From Deltaproteobacteria bacterium (lineage in GTDB: Bacteria > Bdellovibrionota_B > Oligoflexia > Oligoflexales > Bog-1112): a DNA stretch of 50,790 nt. Both the position numbers and the translations under genes were made by a program. Positions 22,822 through 32,457 of the stretch are shown here, piece after piece. How positions within the stretch are numbered: the stretch's first letter is position 1; every line of letters starts with the position of its first letter. The stretch is from assembly GCA_016186945.1 (NCBI GenBank), contig JACPKR010000007.1:1-50790 (forward strand), given 5' to 3'. Below the pieces are notes generated by a model that saw nothing but the letters and a program-made list of their open reading frames with translations, had not been told where the DNA came from and ran no database searches.

Positions 22822-22840
22822 CTCGACATCCCCCCAGGGG

Positions 22841-22975
22841 TAATGGGTAAGCCACTTGGGGCAAGGAGGTGGTTTGGAGGAAACTGCGCAGCTGGTTCCT
22901 CCAAGAAATCCGGGGGAGGCGACGCTTCACTCGCCCCCCCAAACCACCTCCTTGCCCCAAGTGGCTTACGCATTA
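22841..22975. repeat. Repeat family A, copy 4, complete
   Basis: 135 bp with both terminal inverted repeats (TAATGGGTAAGCCACTTGGG and its complement CCCAAGTGGCTTACGCATTA). Internal arms GGAGGTGGTTTGG and CCAAACCACCTCC are also inverted, and the GGAGGAA/TTCCTCC hairpin lies inside. It separates the ccm operon from the peptide cluster. Confidence 0.9.
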
Positions 22976-22995
22976 CGCTGCCGCTTACATGTATC

Positions 22996-23025
22996 TTGAC
23001 AACTCGCTTGCCTTTCATCTATCTA
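22996..23025 (+). promoter_or_regulatory. Probable promoter of the peptide cluster
   Basis: A consensus TTGACA (22996-23001) is followed after 18 bases by TATCTA (23020-23025). It lies just outside the family A repeat and about 85 bases before the small peptide gene. The -10 is imperfect. Confidence 0.45.
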
Positions 23026-23112
23026 GGTCCCACCGGAAAAAGTATTTCCAGCGGGAAAAACATGGTGCTTTTCAAACCGAGAGTTAACACCTTATTTTTA
23101 AAGGAGTTCGCG

Positions 23113-23193
23113 ATGGATGATGAATTTAAATTTGAAGAGGTCGAAGTGTCTTGTGATCCTAACGATACACGAACAGCAATGGCCGATTGCTAA
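23113..23193 (+). CDS. Candidate RiPP precursor peptide (26 residues)
   Basis: The ATG has AAAGGAG six bases upstream, one of the best ribosome sites in the window. The peptide has an acidic, leader-like N half (MDDEFKFEEVEV) and a C half (SCDPNDTRTAMADC) with two cysteines, one of them the last residue. It sits 80 bases before two cobalamin-type radical SAM genes and an exporter-like gene. That layout fits a precursor of a ribosomally made, radical-SAM-modified peptide. A longer in-frame reading from inside the repeat exists but has no ribosome site. I recognise no known precursor family. Function is inferred from context. Confidence 0.6.
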   Translation: MDDEFKFEEVEVSCDPNDTRTAMADC

Positions 23194-23273
23194 AATCAGC
23201 CCCCCTCTAGATTTCTAGCTCCCGTTGAAAGTTTTATCCCTCCTCGCCATCTAGACGGTTGTAGCTAGCAGCT

Positions 23274-25682
23274 ATGATAAAATCTGCACACAATGTTTGC
23301 TTCTGTAGCCCTGAACTTTTCGGCTCTGGGATCGTTACTCGGCCCCACCTTGGGGTTGCTTATCTTCAGAGCTATCTGAGCGATCAAGGTTTCGATAGCT
23401 ATTACTTTAGGCATCGCGAACTTTATTCCATCCGGGCGTATATCGACAAACTCCTATCGTTCTCGCCACAAGTCGTAGGTTTCAGTGTTACCGATGATAC
23501 ACTCGACCTTTTTATCGCCCTTTCAAACGCATTGCAAAAGAGAAATCCAAATATTTTCATAATCGTCGGCGGAGCGATTGCAAAAGCTGAAAGTGCTGAG
23601 TTCATGCTCGCCAACCATTATTGTCATGCTGTTGTTATTGGGGAAGGTGAAGAGCCAACAGCTAGTTTACTAAAGACAATCGGACGCAGTGGAAAGCCTT
23701 CACTGTGTTCGTTTGGTTCGATTCCGGGGGTGGCATCTCGTAATAAAACAGATGGGCAATTAATCTACACCCCCAACACAAAACGTGTTGACATCAATTC
23801 TTATCCTTCACCCATTCTTTCGGGAATCGTTCCGGAGGAGGATCTTCCTGAAATTGGTGTTTTTTCGTCCAGGGGGTGTTTTTTCCGCTGCACCTATTGT
23901 AGCTTCAGCAGCAATTCCGAGTGGCAAGTTCGATATTACGACCAAGAAATTTTTCTTCGAGAAGTTTTTTTAATAGCTGAAACAATTAAGAAAAAAAAGA
24001 GTTCATCGAAGCTTGCTATTTGGGATGACATTTTTACACTCATACCCCGTCGTACAAAAAGTCTTTTGACGAAAATCATTGAAATGAATCTTGGCGTCGA
24101 ATTTTGGTGTCAGACTCGCGTTGATAAAATCACCGAAGAAATTGTTGTTCTTATGAAAAAGGCCGGTGTGAGTCATGTTGGATTGGGATTGGAATCGGCC
24201 TCGCCAAAAGTTTTAAAGACAGTTCAGAAAGTACGGCTTAAGGATTTTGAAAAAGACGGCAATGATCTCGAAGAAAAACATCTTGAAAAGTTTCTGAGAT
24301 TTAAATCCTGGGCTCGAAAAACAGGCCTGTCATACTCCATTAATGTGATTTTTGGGCTACCGGGAGAAACTTTTGATGATGCTATTCAAACTCTGATATT
24401 TCTCAGGAACTTGAAGCCAAAATACTATTTCCACAACATTCTTAGGCTTTATACAGGGGTTCCTCTTTCTAGAGCCTATACAAAACTACCGCACAAAGTG
24501 AGATCTAGAAACACAGGGTTTCGAAAAGAAGAGTGCGCCGTTGGTGCAAGCATCGAACAGTTCCCCTATCCCGTCGAAAAAATTCCTCCGTTGCCAAATC
24601 GGTTTCGGCAGCCTGAAATAGCCGTGATAACAGGACTTGCAGCCGAAGATGAACGGACCAATTACCCGACGATCGTGTTTGATTGTTTTCCCGACCCACA
24701 ATTAGTAAAAAACATTGAGAGCAATCACCATCGTATCCTCTACTTGTTTGATACCTGGAAAAACTCCTCAGGAGGATCAAAAACGCACCTCAGTCAACTG
24801 CGCTTTAGCGCATGCCGAACGATACCCGAGGCGGATCGTCCAGCTTTGTCTTTTCGAACTTTTGAGTTTGAGCATTTCACAAATAAAATAGATAAGGCAG
24901 CAGCACATTACACTTCCAAGACCTACGACCGGTATTCGGACGAAGCGGATATTTATGCTGTTATATCCTCGGACAAGCCGTCGAGCTTTGAACACCTTAT
25001 TCATTTCGCAAATATCTTTATTAAGGGCGGCAGTTTTCGGCTTCCGTCCCATTTTTTGGCCATTCAGTTCAGAGGTTATTTTTTGAAGGATGCTTGTCGA
25101 TGGAGTTCCACGTGTCCAGCTCTAAATGGGCAAAGGGCATTCGTCAAAAAGGACGGAACTCTAACGCCATGCTGGACGAGTAAAAAAGGGAAGGAGGATT
25201 TTTTAAAGGAAACACTGAAAGCAAGAAAAAGGCGAGGATGTGATCGCTGTGTCGTTGAAGCCGAATGTTCAAAGTGTTCATGCCTCCCCCTCAAGTTTGA
25301 GAATCGTTATTGCGATATTCAAAAATCGAAATTTGGTCCTTCGAACGCTGTTGCTCTTCTTGATTTTTTGTGCTCCCAATTTTTAGACCCCCTCAACCTA
25401 AATATGACCCCCCTGAGCGTTAACGAAATCGTTTCCCCTCCAGGGGGATTGGGGAAAGTTCTATTGATTCGATTTGGTTTCGAGTCTTTTTTTCTTTGCA
25501 AGCTTCATAAGAGCTATCGGATTTTCAGGCTTCCGGAGCAATTGAAGTTGTATGACATGATCAAACGTCGTTGGTCGGAAACATCGCCAGACAGAGCTGT
25601 TTCAAATGAAGCAAGTCACGATCCAAAATGGGAAAAGCTTCTTCAGACGTTAGAAACGATGAGGGTACAAACATGCGGGTGA
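23274..25682 (+). CDS. Cobalamin-binding-type radical SAM protein with SPASM-like tail
   Basis: 802 residues. A Rossmann-like B12-binding domain (about 1-150; FSPQVVGFSVTDD, then IVGGAIAKAESAE and VVIGEGEE) lacks the DxHxxG cobalt-ligand motif. The radical SAM domain (about 190-420) has the 4Fe-4S motif C202-x3-C206-x2-C209. Near the C terminus a cysteine cluster (C633, C656, C659, C665, C668, C670, C680) resembles a SPASM auxiliary Fe-S domain, with CX2CX5C spacing. A further 100-residue tail follows. Such enzymes methylate unactivated carbons or form cross-links, and SPASM domains are typical of peptide-modifying members. It overlaps the next gene by 10 bases. No ribosome site is clear at this ATG. 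Codons are AT-richer than those of neighbouring operons. Confidence 0.8.
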   Translation: MIKSAHNVCFCSPELFGSGIVTRPHLGVAYLQSYLSDQGFDSYYFRHRELYSIRAYIDKLLSFSPQVVGFSVTDDTLDLFIALSNALQKRNPNIFIIVGGAIAKAESAEFMLANHYCHAVVIGEGEEPTASLLKTIGRSGKPSLCSFGSIPGVASRNKTDGQLIYTPNTKRVDINSYPSPILSGIVPEEDLPEIGVFSSRGCFFRCTYCSFSSNSEWQVRYYDQEIFLREVFLIAETIKKKKSSSKLAIWDDIFTLIPRRTKSLLTKIIEMNLGVEFWCQTRVDKITEEIVVLMKKAGVSHVGLGLESASPKVLKTVQKVRLKDFEKDGNDLEEKHLEKFLRFKSWARKTGLSYSINVIFGLPGETFDDAIQTLIFLRNLKPKYYFHNILRLYTGVPLSRAYTKLPHKVRSRNTGFRKEECAVGASIEQFPYPVEKIPPLPNRFRQPEIAVITGLAAEDERTNYPTIVFDCFPDPQLVKNIESNHHRILYLFDTWKNSSGGSKTHLSQLRFSACRTIPEADRPALSFRTFEFEHFTNKIDKAAAHYTSKTYDRYSDEADIYAVISSDKPSSFEHLIHFANIFIKGGSFRLPSHFLAIQFRGYFLKDACRWSSTCPALNGQRAFVKKDGTLTPCWTSKKGKEDFLKETLKARKRRGCDRCVVEAECSKCSCLPLKFENRYCDIQKSKFGPSNAVALLDFLCSQFLDPLNLNMTPLSVNEIVSPPGGLGKVLLIRFGFESFFLCKLHKSYRIFRLPEQLKLYDMIKRRWSETSPDRAVSNEASHDPKWEKLLQTLETMRVQTCG

Positions 25683-27724
25683 CCTTAGTGTATCCTTCCA
25701 ATTCCGAATTTATTAACAGAGTTCCTTTAGGGTTACTGTCAATCGCGTCTTATCTAAAGAAACACCTTCAAATCGAAGCAAATGTCGTTCACCTCGGCCC
25801 CTACATACAATCTGAAGTCATTCAGAGGAATTCAAAATTGTATGATAATTGCGTCGATTTTCTGTTAGAGAAATTTCCTTCCGACGTATACGGTTTCAGT
25901 GCAATCGTGACTACTGAAATTCCTGCTTTACAGATTGCAGAACGGCTTAAAAGAAAAAATCGAGGTACTAAGATTGTTTTCGGTAACCAGTGGTCTGCAG
26001 TCAATGATGTCTCCGTTATGAAAGCTTTTCCTTTCATAGATTTTATCGTACGAGGGGAAGGAGAGATAACTTTTTCACAATTGATCGAAAGCTTGCTGTT
26101 CAACAACGACTTCTATTCTATCGAAGGATTGACATTTCGCAAGGAGACGACCGGAGACATTGTAAGAAATTGCGATCGCAAGAGAATACAGAATTTGGAT
26201 AGTTTATCGTTCTACGACTATAATTTGCTACATCCTTCTTTGAACGGGTATGCTCCTTCAAAGTTTGGTGGAATACATGGCCTTTTAGAATTTGGCAGAG
26301 GATGTCCGTTCTCCTGTTCTTTCTGTGCAACAACAAGACACTGGACGCAGACAATTTCCGTCTTTTCTATCGAAAGAACTATCCGCGATATTCGAACACT
26401 TGAAACTCAAGGATGTCAATTCGTCGAATTCACTTACGACAATTTTGGCACTCGCCCTAAGGAGATCGCGCGCTTTTGCGAGGATCTCATGGTATCTGGC
26501 GTCAAAGTAAGGTGGAGTGTGCGCTGTCGCTTGGATTGTTTGTCTGACAAGGTTATTTCTCTTTTGAAAAGAGCTAATTGTGTTTCCATTCTCGTAGGAT
26601 TGGAGTCAGGTTCGGAAAAAGTAATCGAAAAAATTGGGAAAAAATTGTCATTTGAAAAAGGTTTGAAAACTATAGAGAAACTCCTTGAGTCGGGTATCAC
26701 TGTTAGCTCGAGTTTTGTCTGCGGAATGCCGTTTGAAGACAAAGATGATGTTGTCGAGACCATGAAGCTGGCATGTGTGCTAGCCTCTTACGGAGAGAGA
26801 GCTTACTCGACAATTCATTTCCACACCCCTCTTCCTGGCACTCCGGTAACAAAGCAAGCGTTGCTCAGTAACAAGATAAAATTCTCGGAAGATTCGAGAA
26901 TATCCCCAGATTTCAGTCGATACTTGAATTGGGTAGACGACTCACGATTCCCTGAAGATCAAAGTCTTATAGACGCCTTTCCAGATTTGTTTACAGGGTA
27001 TGCCTATATTGAGAATGAAAATGTCTCGGCTCAACACTATGTGTCTTTAGCAGGTTATTTCAATGTTCTCGTAAGGTTTTATCCATTAACTATTCTCTGT
27101 ATCATTACGAAGCTTGAAGAGGAAGGCTCCGATTTTATTACAGAGTTTGAAAATTTTATCGCCAGCAAAGGGTTAAATGCTAGAGACCTTTTATCCATCA
27201 ATAGCCATTCAATCGCTAGTCCAAAAGAGCTTTTAGGTAATTTTGTTGAATTTTTTTACAGCATAGATTTGTGTCACGATACATTCGCAAGTTCAATATT
27301 TGATTACGAAACCGTCATCTGCGATTTTCCATCACAAAATACTGGGAACCTTCACAGGCAAATTGATATCGAAAAAAAAGTTAACTTGAACATCATGGTC
27401 CGCGAATATGACTTTGACGTTCCTAAGGTGATCTCTAAAATGAGAAGGTCGCTTTTTTCTACCCGTAATGGGAAAAATCTGCTCTGTAACGAAAAAACCT
27501 ATCTCGTCTTTTCCAAAGAGGGAAGCCTAATACGGGTTTACAAAATCGGAAGGGGTCTTTTCCGATGCCTCAAATTTTTGGAACAATCCGGCCATATTAC
27601 AAAGGCCGTAACAGACGCTTGTCAGGCTTTGGGAGTTGAAGACAAGAGTCAAGAATTATATTTGAAGAATTTCATGTCGTTTGTAACAAAAAACGGACAT
27701 TTTTTTAGGATGCAATATGAATAA
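25673..27724 (+). CDS. Second B12-type radical SAM protein, possible RRE-like C terminus
   Basis: 683 residues from ATG 25673, chosen for GAGGG about 8 bases upstream; an earlier in-frame ATG at 25628 lies inside the previous gene. B12-binding-like domain about 1-150 (LGLLSIASYLKK, IVFGNQWSAV, FIVRGEGEITFSQL). Radical SAM domain about 195-420 with C211-x3-C215-x2-C218 (CPFSCSFC). The last about 75 residues (LVFSKEGSLIRVYKIGRG onward) have the strand-helix-helix pattern of PqqD-like peptide-recognition (RRE) domains, which bind RiPP leaders. That last assignment is tentative. It overlaps both neighbours, so it is co-translated with them. Confidence 0.8.
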   Translation: MRVTLVYPSNSEFINRVPLGLLSIASYLKKHLQIEANVVHLGPYIQSEVIQRNSKLYDNCVDFLLEKFPSDVYGFSAIVTTEIPALQIAERLKRKNRGTKIVFGNQWSAVNDVSVMKAFPFIDFIVRGEGEITFSQLIESLLFNNDFYSIEGLTFRKETTGDIVRNCDRKRIQNLDSLSFYDYNLLHPSLNGYAPSKFGGIHGLLEFGRGCPFSCSFCATTRHWTQTISVFSIERTIRDIRTLETQGCQFVEFTYDNFGTRPKEIARFCEDLMVSGVKVRWSVRCRLDCLSDKVISLLKRANCVSILVGLESGSEKVIEKIGKKLSFEKGLKTIEKLLESGITVSSSFVCGMPFEDKDDVVETMKLACVLASYGERAYSTIHFHTPLPGTPVTKQALLSNKIKFSEDSRISPDFSRYLNWVDDSRFPEDQSLIDAFPDLFTGYAYIENENVSAQHYVSLAGYFNVLVRFYPLTILCIITKLEEEGSDFITEFENFIASKGLNARDLLSINSHSIASPKELLGNFVEFFYSIDLCHDTFASSIFDYETVICDFPSQNTGNLHRQIDIEKKVNLNIMVREYDFDVPKVISKMRRSLFSTRNGKNLLCNEKTYLVFSKEGSLIRVYKIGRGLFRCLKFLEQSGHITKAVTDACQALGVEDKSQELYLKNFMSFVTKNGHFFRMQYE

Positions 27725-28901
27725 GCCCAGCTTTTCCAAATACTATGTTCTTCAAAGTTTGATAAGTGCGCTCTTTCATGTGCCCGTCCTTGTTATTTTC
27801 ATGAATGATCAACTTGGAGATGTTAGCGCTGTTGCAACTCTACTTTTTGTAAAGACAATGTCCAATTTGATTTTCGAAATCCCTACGGGAATTGTAGCCG
27901 ATTATTGTGGTCGGAAAAAGTCCGCTGGCTTTGGAGTTTTTCTGGCTGCTTGCAGCACCTTGATTTATTTTTTATCGGGTGATTATTCCTGGCTGTTCGT
28001 TTCTCAAGTTCTTTTTGGCTTGTCTGAAGCATTTGTTTCAGGGTCCCTGACCTCTCTCATCTTTGAAAATGTGGAAAAGGAAAAGCCAGGTAGTTTTTCG
28101 GAAGTGCAAAGAAATCTATCCTTGATAAGTTCGCTGTCCCTTTTTGTAAGCTTTAATATTGGAAGCTTAGCGTACTCTCTCACGAAGACAGTTCCGTTTC
28201 TTTTGAGTACGATTTGTTCTTTTTTGGGGCTTTTGTGGTTTTTCGTGATTAAGGATTCTACGTCTAAGGAAGAGTCGTCAACTAACAGCGAAACTTTTAT
28301 GAAGTCTCTGTCTGGACAATCATCCAGTTTATGGCACTTGCTCTTGTCAACAGGAACCTTAGGAGGGCTTTTTTATGCCCTTTATCTTTTTGTTTTTCCT
28401 CTTTTGCTGAAAGCGGCACAAGTTCCGGAGGAGTTTTTCGGCATGATTTTCTCTGCAGGGGTTATTTGTTTTGGTTTAGGCGGAAAATATTCCGGTCTTG
28501 GTGTGAAAAATAATCGCTATCTCGAAGTTGTGGCCCCTCTGGCAATCGTATCTCTTCTTGTTTTGTGGGTTTTCTTCCCCTCAGCCGCCGTGACGGTTTT
28601 CGTTTTGTTTGCGTTTCGGTTTGTTACTGGAAGTTACAATGTAGCCCGTGACGTAGAGATGAACTATACGATAACAAGCTCGAAACATAGAACTTCGATT
28701 CTTAGCTTATCCTCGGGTCTTAATCGGGGGATTTCCGCCCTGTTTATCGTTATGCTCGGTGGGCTAATGAAGTACTACGGTCAGCAGGGGCTTGTCCTTT
28801 TCTCAGGCTCCATTGTATTGCTGGTCGGTCTGATTTCATTTCTCGCGAGTTATTTTCTCAAACTTCCATCGACCATTGACAAGGGCGCCTCCGCCCCCTA
28901 A
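27717..28901 (+). CDS. MFS transporter, probable exporter of the cluster product
   Basis: 394 residues, about 12 membrane helices. The MFS loop 2-3 motif is recognisable (GIVADYCGRKKSAG). Drug/peptide efflux members have this layout. It starts 8 bases inside the preceding radical SAM gene, with AGGA upstream, so it belongs to the same operon. It probably exports the modified peptide or gives self-protection (inference). No peptidase gene is seen. Its stop codon is part of the rnpB -10 box. Confidence 0.85.
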   Translation: MNKPSFSKYYVLQSLISALFHVPVLVIFMNDQLGDVSAVATLLFVKTMSNLIFEIPTGIVADYCGRKKSAGFGVFLAACSTLIYFLSGDYSWLFVSQVLFGLSEAFVSGSLTSLIFENVEKEKPGSFSEVQRNLSLISSLSLFVSFNIGSLAYSLTKTVPFLLSTICSFLGLLWFFVIKDSTSKEESSTNSETFMKSLSGQSSSLWHLLLSTGTLGGLFYALYLFVFPLLLKAAQVPEEFFGMIFSAGVICFGLGGKYSGLGVKNNRYLEVVAPLAIVSLLVLWVFFPSAAVTVFVLFAFRFVTGSYNVARDVEMNYTITSSKHRTSILSLSSGLNRGISALFIVMLGGLMKYYGQQGLVLFSGSIVLLVGLISFLASYFLKLPSTIDKGASAP

Positions 28902-28910: not shown

Positions 28911-29298
28911 GGATTCGCGATGCAGCCCTGCGGGCTACCGCAGCCTGAACTCGAAAGGGAGATGGCTGAGGAAAGTCCGGACTTCAAAGGGCGCAATACT
29001 GGCTAACCGCCAGGCGGGGTAACCCGACGGAAAGTGCAACAGAAAGTAAACCGCCCGCCGAAATGCGGGTAAGGGTGAAACGGTGAGGTAAAAGCTCACC
29101 AGTGTAGGTGGTAACATCTATAGCTAGGCAAACCCTATTCGAAGCAAGGCCAAATAGGGGAACATCGTCACTGGCCCAGTGCGTTCCCGGGTAGGCCGCT
29201 AGAGGAAGCTGGCAACAGCTTTCCCAGATGAATGGTAGCCTCCGTGTGTAAACACGAAGACAGAATCCGGCTTATAGCAGAGCTGAATCGCAGAATCC
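28911..29298 (+). ncRNA. rnpB: RNase P RNA
   Basis: About 388 nt, catalytic RNA of RNase P, which matures tRNA 5' ends. Conserved blocks are present in order: GAGGAAAGTCCGG (28968-28980), ACAGAAAGTAAAC near 29039, AGGGTGAAACGGTGAGG near 29072 and ACAGAATCCGGCTTAT (29260-29275). The ends pair as helix P1: GGATTC-GCGAT-CAGC (28911-28926) with GCTG-ATCGC-GAATCC (29282-29298). That pairing sets the boundaries. The trmB reading frame could be extended back into this RNA, but that part is not coding. Confidence 0.95.
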
Positions 29299-30017: not shown

Positions 30018-30161
30018 TAATGGGTAAGCCACTTGGGGCAAATAGGGAGAGGGGGGTTTGGGGGGGCGAGGGAACCGTCGCTCCCCCAAGGGATTTCTTG
30101 GAGGAACCAGCTGCGCAGTTTCCTCCAAACCACCTCCTTGCCCCAAGTGGCTTACGCATTA
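30018..30161. repeat. Repeat family A, copy 5, complete
   Basis: 144 bp with both terminal inverted repeats. The left half carries the AAATAGGGAGAGGGGGG variant and the right half the hairpin and CCAAACCACCTCCTTGCC arm. It follows the trmB stop by 3 bases. Confidence 0.9.
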
Positions 30162-32313: not shown

Positions 32314-32457
32314 TAATGCGTAAGCCACTTGGGGCAAATAGGGAGAGGGGGGTTTGGGGGGGCGAGGGAACAGTCGCTCCCCCAAGGCATTTCTTGGATG
32401 AACCAGCTGCGCAGTTTCCTCCAAACCACCTCCTTGCCCCAAGTAGCTTACCCATTA
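32314..32457. repeat. Repeat family A, copy 6, complete
   Basis: 144 bp, close to copy 5 in sequence, with small changes in the right end (AAGTAGCTTACCCATTA). It sits between the converging corC-type and khpA genes, 13 and 6 bases from their stops, where a two-way terminator would lie. Confidence 0.9.

Follow-up and report, generated by a model that had tools for sequence, protein, structure and literature searches.

The stretch of DNA analysed here, referred to below as the window, spans 50,790 nucleotides and carries a real and complete four-gene operon at positions 23113-28901 (Table 1). A short peptide gene comes first, followed by two genes for radical SAM enzymes, rSAM1 and rSAM2, and by a transporter gene. 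Both enzymes combine a B12-binding domain with a CxxxCxxC core, as expected for cobalamin-dependent radical SAM proteins, and each passed the Pfam cut-offs for the two domains, while the third long gene passed that for MFS_1, confirming the content originally proposed for the long genes. Their reported overlap by 8-10 bases was also recovered, with 10 nt shared by rSAM1 and rSAM2 and 8 nt by rSAM2 and the MFS gene. An alternative start of rSAM2 at 25628 (698 aa) is possible; alignments of its relatives begin at the ATG at 25673. The block had been described as AT-richer than its neighbours, and its G+C content is indeed 42.0% against 47.8% in the left flank and 47.2% in the right flank. The 60-base counts given earlier, 22 G+C at 27181-27240 and 32 at 43081-43140, are exact and constitute weak evidence by themselves, with 22 or fewer occurring in 10% and 32 or more in 21% of the 60-mers of the window. 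Regarding transcription, the TTGACA hexamer proposed as promoter-like is present, but it lacks a good -10 element and does not figure among the sites listed by the promoter scan, and its strength as a promoter could not be demonstrated. An attenuator hairpin between the peptide gene and rSAM1 was considered and rejected, as folding of this region was no better than that of shuffled sequences.

Table 1. Features of the operon and its surroundings, and of related loci (coordinates refer to the window unless a locus is named)
Feature	Position	Strand	Basis or remark
Palindromic element TAAGCCACTTGGGGCAAGGAGGTGGTTTGG, copies	386-415, 22848-22968, 30125-30154, 32421-32450, 47459-47488		
Long inverted repeat, 41-nt arms, 95% complementary	22840-22976	.	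Left boundary of operon; folding z -12.4
TTGACA, -35-like	22996-23001	+	Without good -10
Shine-Dalgarno AAAGGAG	23100-23106	+	Ends 6 nt before precursor ATG
Probable precursor ORF, 26 aa, MDDEFKFEEVEVSCDPNDTRTAMADC	23113-23193	+	Ribosome site and position; leader motif test
rSAM1, 802 aa: cobalamin-binding domain, radical SAM core CFFRCTYC	23274-25682	+	
SPASM-like cysteine pattern in rSAM1, residues 614-680	25113-25313	+	Pattern search
rSAM2, 683 aa: cobalamin-binding domain, radical SAM core CPFSCSFC, helical region, RRE tail; ApyD-like	25673-27724	+	
RRE (PqqD/ApyI-like) tail of rSAM2, residues 574-673	27392-27691	+	Model m17069037e3a3; profile match
MFS transporter, 394 aa, probable exporter	27717-28901	+	Pfam
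rnpB (RNase P RNA)	28922-29290	+	Right boundary, outside pathway
(CHAP)n precursors of relatives	L044 4860-5000; L045 9070-9210; L048 5058-5198; L049 9046-9219		
(CHAP)n precursors of relatives	L156 4213-4323; L157 4508-4702; L158 3910-4053		
Kuenenia-type cluster	L153 4948-14427		Also in L152; trio also in L154 and L155

The strong ribosome site attributed to the 26-residue gene is borne out by the AAAGGAG that precedes it, and in 5000 dinucleotide shuffles of 22981-23273 any ATG-initiated ORF of 20-80 aa so equipped was found in 0.7% of cases. The encoded peptide contains an acidic leader with the sequence FKFEEVE, a putative leader strand, and a proposed core, SCDPNDTRTAMADC; its two cysteines lie 12 residues apart and form no repeat. 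A second frame of 33 aa, which the original prediction did not mention, overlaps it at 23117-23218 (MMNLNLKRSKCLVILTIHEQQWPIAKISPPLDF) and shares its ribosome site, from which it is less favourably spaced (10 nt). It is conceivable, though unlikely, that the operon belongs to a RiPP pathway whose precursor is this second frame or comes from another locus of the genome, given that the ribosome site is common to both frames and that comparative evidence does not fix the 26-mer. The 26-mer is nevertheless favoured by its ribosome-site spacing (6 versus 10 nt), its position at the first ATG and its acidic leader with the FKFEEVE motif, and the interior of the operon offers no other intergenic space for a candidate precursor. 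The 26-mer is the probable precursor peptide.

The C-terminal tail of rSAM2 is an RRE according to its predicted fold and to profile comparison. In the AlphaFold model of the enzyme (mean pLDDT of 86.2), the tail forms three strands and three helices with one extra helix, and it matched a profile built from the tails of its relatives (E 4e-5, probability 70%). All seven aligned tails of the relatives matched the ApyI RRE family and four of them also PqqD, a PqqD-like motif being present in the full-length relatives, and the whole protein of one of these (L045) also matched HvfC and ApyI. Direct Pfam and NCBIfam scans of rSAM2 did not detect the RRE. Such domains are common, though not universal, in RiPP clusters. 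The best NCBIfam match of rSAM2 was ApyD (NF050148), over nearly its full length, with a score of 188 bits against a curated cut-off of 750, which leaves the enzyme outside that family. Full-length relatives were about 28% identical among the matches listed in the profile scan of species genomes. A tree of 43 enzymes placed rSAM2 inside a 24-row clade (SH-aLRT 99) containing all 15 RRE-tailed rows, and its nearest rows were enzymes accompanied by precursors with CHAP repeats, although its exact sister is uncertain due to its long terminal branch (1.47).

An adjacent short (CHAP)n precursor gene was found in all seven of the closest rSAM2 relatives examined (L044, L045, L048, L049, L156, L157, and L158, the last three from relatives of the L045 genome), and the seven precursors share the leader motif [LIM][KE]I..VE followed by (CHAP)n. 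According to the original prediction, homologous clusters that never carry a short peptide gene would speak against a RiPP-like locus; the closest rSAM2 relatives examined always adjoin such a gene, and this objection therefore does not apply. The RiPP-like reading is instead supported by the RRE-type tail, by the grouping with RRE-tailed enzymes and by these neighbouring precursors. A Trm112-type methyltransferase and an M19 dipeptidase follow the precursor in L044, L045, and L156, and the methyltransferase was also seen in L157 and L158; that of L045 resembles the 4-mercaptohistidine methyltransferase domain. The CHAP precursors are weakly similar to NCBIfam CefA (NF038108), and our literature search found no description of CHAP or Cys-every-fifth precursors.

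The FKFEEVE sequence of the 26-mer roughly fits the leader motif of these relatives. Using a profile of the seven CHAP leaders, in a test picked after the sequences had been viewed, the 26-mer ranked second among the 236 window ORFs preceded by a ribosome site, and its score was equalled or exceeded by 0.5% of its shuffled versions. This modestly significant match is suggestive of a link between the 26-mer and CHAP-type leaders. Its core is unlike the CHAP repeats, and the regular (CHAP)n cysteine repeat that characterizes CHAP/CefA-like clusters is absent from the 26-mer.

The nearest relative of rSAM1 among the matches listed (about 30% identity, tree support 100) is encoded at 9537-10928 of L069, by the last gene in a row of three overlapping B12-radical SAM genes of Candidatus Kuenenia hertensis. 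Beyond these Kuenenia-type kin, rSAM1 extends by about 400 residues, in which the cysteines follow the order C-x13-G-x4-C ... C-x2-C-x5-C-x2-C-x-C ... C and deviate in one spacing from the SPASM reference pattern (C-x(9-15)-G-x4-C, gap, C-x2-C-x5-C-x3-C, gap, C). The profiles scanned, Pfam among them, detected no SPASM domain in rSAM1, and a SPASM-like pattern after the core was seen in none of the 219 related reading frames examined. The structure model of rSAM1 is confident for the core only and of low confidence in the C-terminal region; an RRE at this C terminus was also considered but not supported, with no profile match and a low-confidence model there.

The core folds of both models match CysS, TsrM, and TokK, and the best solved-structure matches of the two were CysS, TsrM, TokK, and OxsB, all of them B12-radical SAM enzymes whose substrates are small molecules, carrier-bound or free. 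These matches would agree with the enzymes and the exporter making a non-peptide natural product, with the short ORF being a regulatory leader peptide or spurious; we regard this as quite unlikely in view of the RRE tail, the kinship with precursor-linked enzymes and the lack of other biosynthetic genes in the operon. A role in primary metabolism, be it a hopanoid, bacteriochlorophyll, tRNA or lipid pathway, appears highly improbable, as the likeness to the HpnJ, BchE, and MiaB families is below threshold, with every score far under the curated cut-offs, the remaining seven genomes of the family have no counterpart, the insertion site is variable and co-occurrence with such a pathway was not seen. 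The original prediction had named assignment of both enzymes to a known lipid, cofactor or tRNA pathway as a further objection; neither reaches a curated family cut-off, and such an assignment was rejected.

The operon lies between the ccm genes and rnpB-trmB-ybeY, in a gap that is variable. In the two relatives of the same family with both flanks readable, the ccm genes, the last of which is dsbE, and the rnpB-trmB-ybeY-corC order are kept, and the gap between ccm and rnpB measures about 2.4 and 4.2 kb and is filled by unrelated genes; in the other relatives fetched, gene order is conserved on the rnpB side. No match to the C-terminal half of rSAM1 was found elsewhere in the phylum sample (58 genomes) or in a wider sample (383 genomes), and none to the C-terminal part of rSAM2 in the 383 genomes. 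Scans of genome contigs and viral contigs with the single rSAM1 protein retrieved no relative, no counterpart of the enzymes was present in the remaining seven genomes of the family, and a second copy of the cluster was not found in either genome sample or in the genome and viral contigs. Judging from the variable gap and from the absence of matches to the C-terminal parts of the enzymes in these samples, the cluster looks acquired. On its left side, the inverted repeat with a very stable hairpin is a full copy, placed just beside the operon, of a dispersed palindromic element, the arm of which occurs six times in the window against none expected, and this repeat probably does not belong to the pathway. 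A HEARO RNA match was also seen at positions 1-226 of the window (- strand), cut by the window end.

Concerning cofactor supply, a domain search revealed three other proteins with B12-binding domains in the genome (open frames of 714, 1214, and 1111 codons), which we take to be perhaps mutases and methionine synthase. Their presence suggests that the host probably uses B12. A search of the genome, which is 91% complete, revealed no cobalamin riboswitch.

Taken together, these observations are probably best explained by a horizontally acquired RiPP-type operon, in which the 26-mer would dock on the RRE and be modified by rSAM2 and rSAM1 before export by the MFS protein. We infer that the acidic N-terminal part (FKFEEVEV) may bind as an extra strand to the RRE domain of rSAM2, presenting the cysteine-containing core to the radical SAM active sites. 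Methylation is the commonest reaction of the B12-radical SAM class, and rSAM2 would most likely methylate an unactivated carbon with methylcobalamin as the donor, a proposal based on its kinship with the tyrosine beta-methylase ApyD and with the CHAP-repeat maturases. The second modification, by rSAM1 with its SPASM-like extra cysteines, could be another methylation or a cross-link, possibly via cysteine. No protease gene is present, which, like the negative searches for a cobalamin riboswitch and for a second copy of the cluster, counts against explaining the locus as a RiPP operon. More tentatively, and with less confidence than the operon as such, rSAM1 might represent a cobalamin radical SAM peptide enzyme with extra SPASM-type iron-sulfur clusters, the combination seen in none of the related frames, acting with the RRE-tailed ApyD-like enzyme on the 26-residue precursor in an undescribed chemistry.

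The clusters of the closest rSAM2 relatives resemble the operon in having a full-length rSAM2-type enzyme with an RRE tail and, next to it, a short precursor gene that has a strong ribosome site and encodes a similar leader motif. However, they encode one B12-radical SAM enzyme instead of two, their precursor has a repeat core and follows the enzyme gene, whereas the window peptide has no repeat and comes first, and, where the flanks could be read far enough, they carry the methyltransferase and the dipeptidase in place of an MFS exporter. In Methanosarcina, a 147-aa repeat protein (L046 6288-6731; RVQTPKAINEAA..IQIPRTIEEE) is encoded immediately before the gene for an RRE-tailed B12-radical SAM enzyme and is a possible repeat precursor. 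In the Kuenenia-type clusters (L069/L155 and L152-L154), the nearest rSAM1 relative stands beside an rSAM2-like enzyme and a PqqD protein, but their three B12-radical SAM enzymes lack RRE or SPASM-like tails, PqqD is separate and a HemN-like protein is present. The L069 cluster encodes the PqqD protein, a SPASM-type radical SAM protein and the HemN-like radical SAM protein, and the trio of B12-radical SAM genes is kept in three genomes related to that of L069. Cysteine-rich peptides lie further downstream in two of the four Kuenenia-type genomes and resemble the Cxxx-repeat radical SAM target family; four paralogous ones follow in both L153 and L152, and L153 has an additional gene with a SPASM-like end. 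Besides, in a region of a Saganbacteria genome (G386 C125; L159 434-17186), other radical SAM genes and an ABC transporter are interspersed among four genes for B12-radical SAM enzymes, three of which have PqqD-like tails; this region is possibly a multi-enzyme peptide-maturation island.

Among described pathways, that of aminopyruvatide (apy) in Burkholderia thailandensis likewise employs an RRE-containing B12-radical SAM enzyme on a RiPP precursor, ApyD, which beta-methylates a tyrosine (PMC10635010). In contrast to apy, the window operon has no P450, MNIO, ApyI or ApyS genes, its 26-mer is without the Tyr-Leu-Tyr-Asp core and it includes a second B12-radical SAM enzyme. The pathways of polytheonamide and bottromycin use enzyme families different from those of the window and larger precursors, and we know of no RRE-tailed enzyme of the rSAM2 type in either of them. 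Both are nevertheless precedents for a single precursor served by two B12-radical SAM enzymes, which had been put forward as a new architecture, a claim that does not stand: PoyB and PoyC act on one precursor in polytheonamide, as do three radical SAM C-methyltransferases in bottromycin (PMC11285071). The features of the operon that stay unusual are the small size of the precursor and the odd C-terminal half of rSAM1. Enzymes of the B12-radical SAM class also perform thioether and ring formation (PMC13331322). Overall, the operon is a known kind of pathway that matches no described member, and its novelty lies in bringing together a precursor of very small size, an ApyD-like enzyme with an RRE tail and a B12-radical SAM enzyme whose cysteine-rich C-terminal half has no relatives in the sequences searched. 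It widens the range of RRE-tailed B12-radical SAM peptide enzymes to a bacterial group whose close relatives yielded none. Its probable precursor of 26 residues is small enough for synthesis and direct testing, and the CHAP-precursor family provides a tractable comparison for leader recognition by RRE tails.
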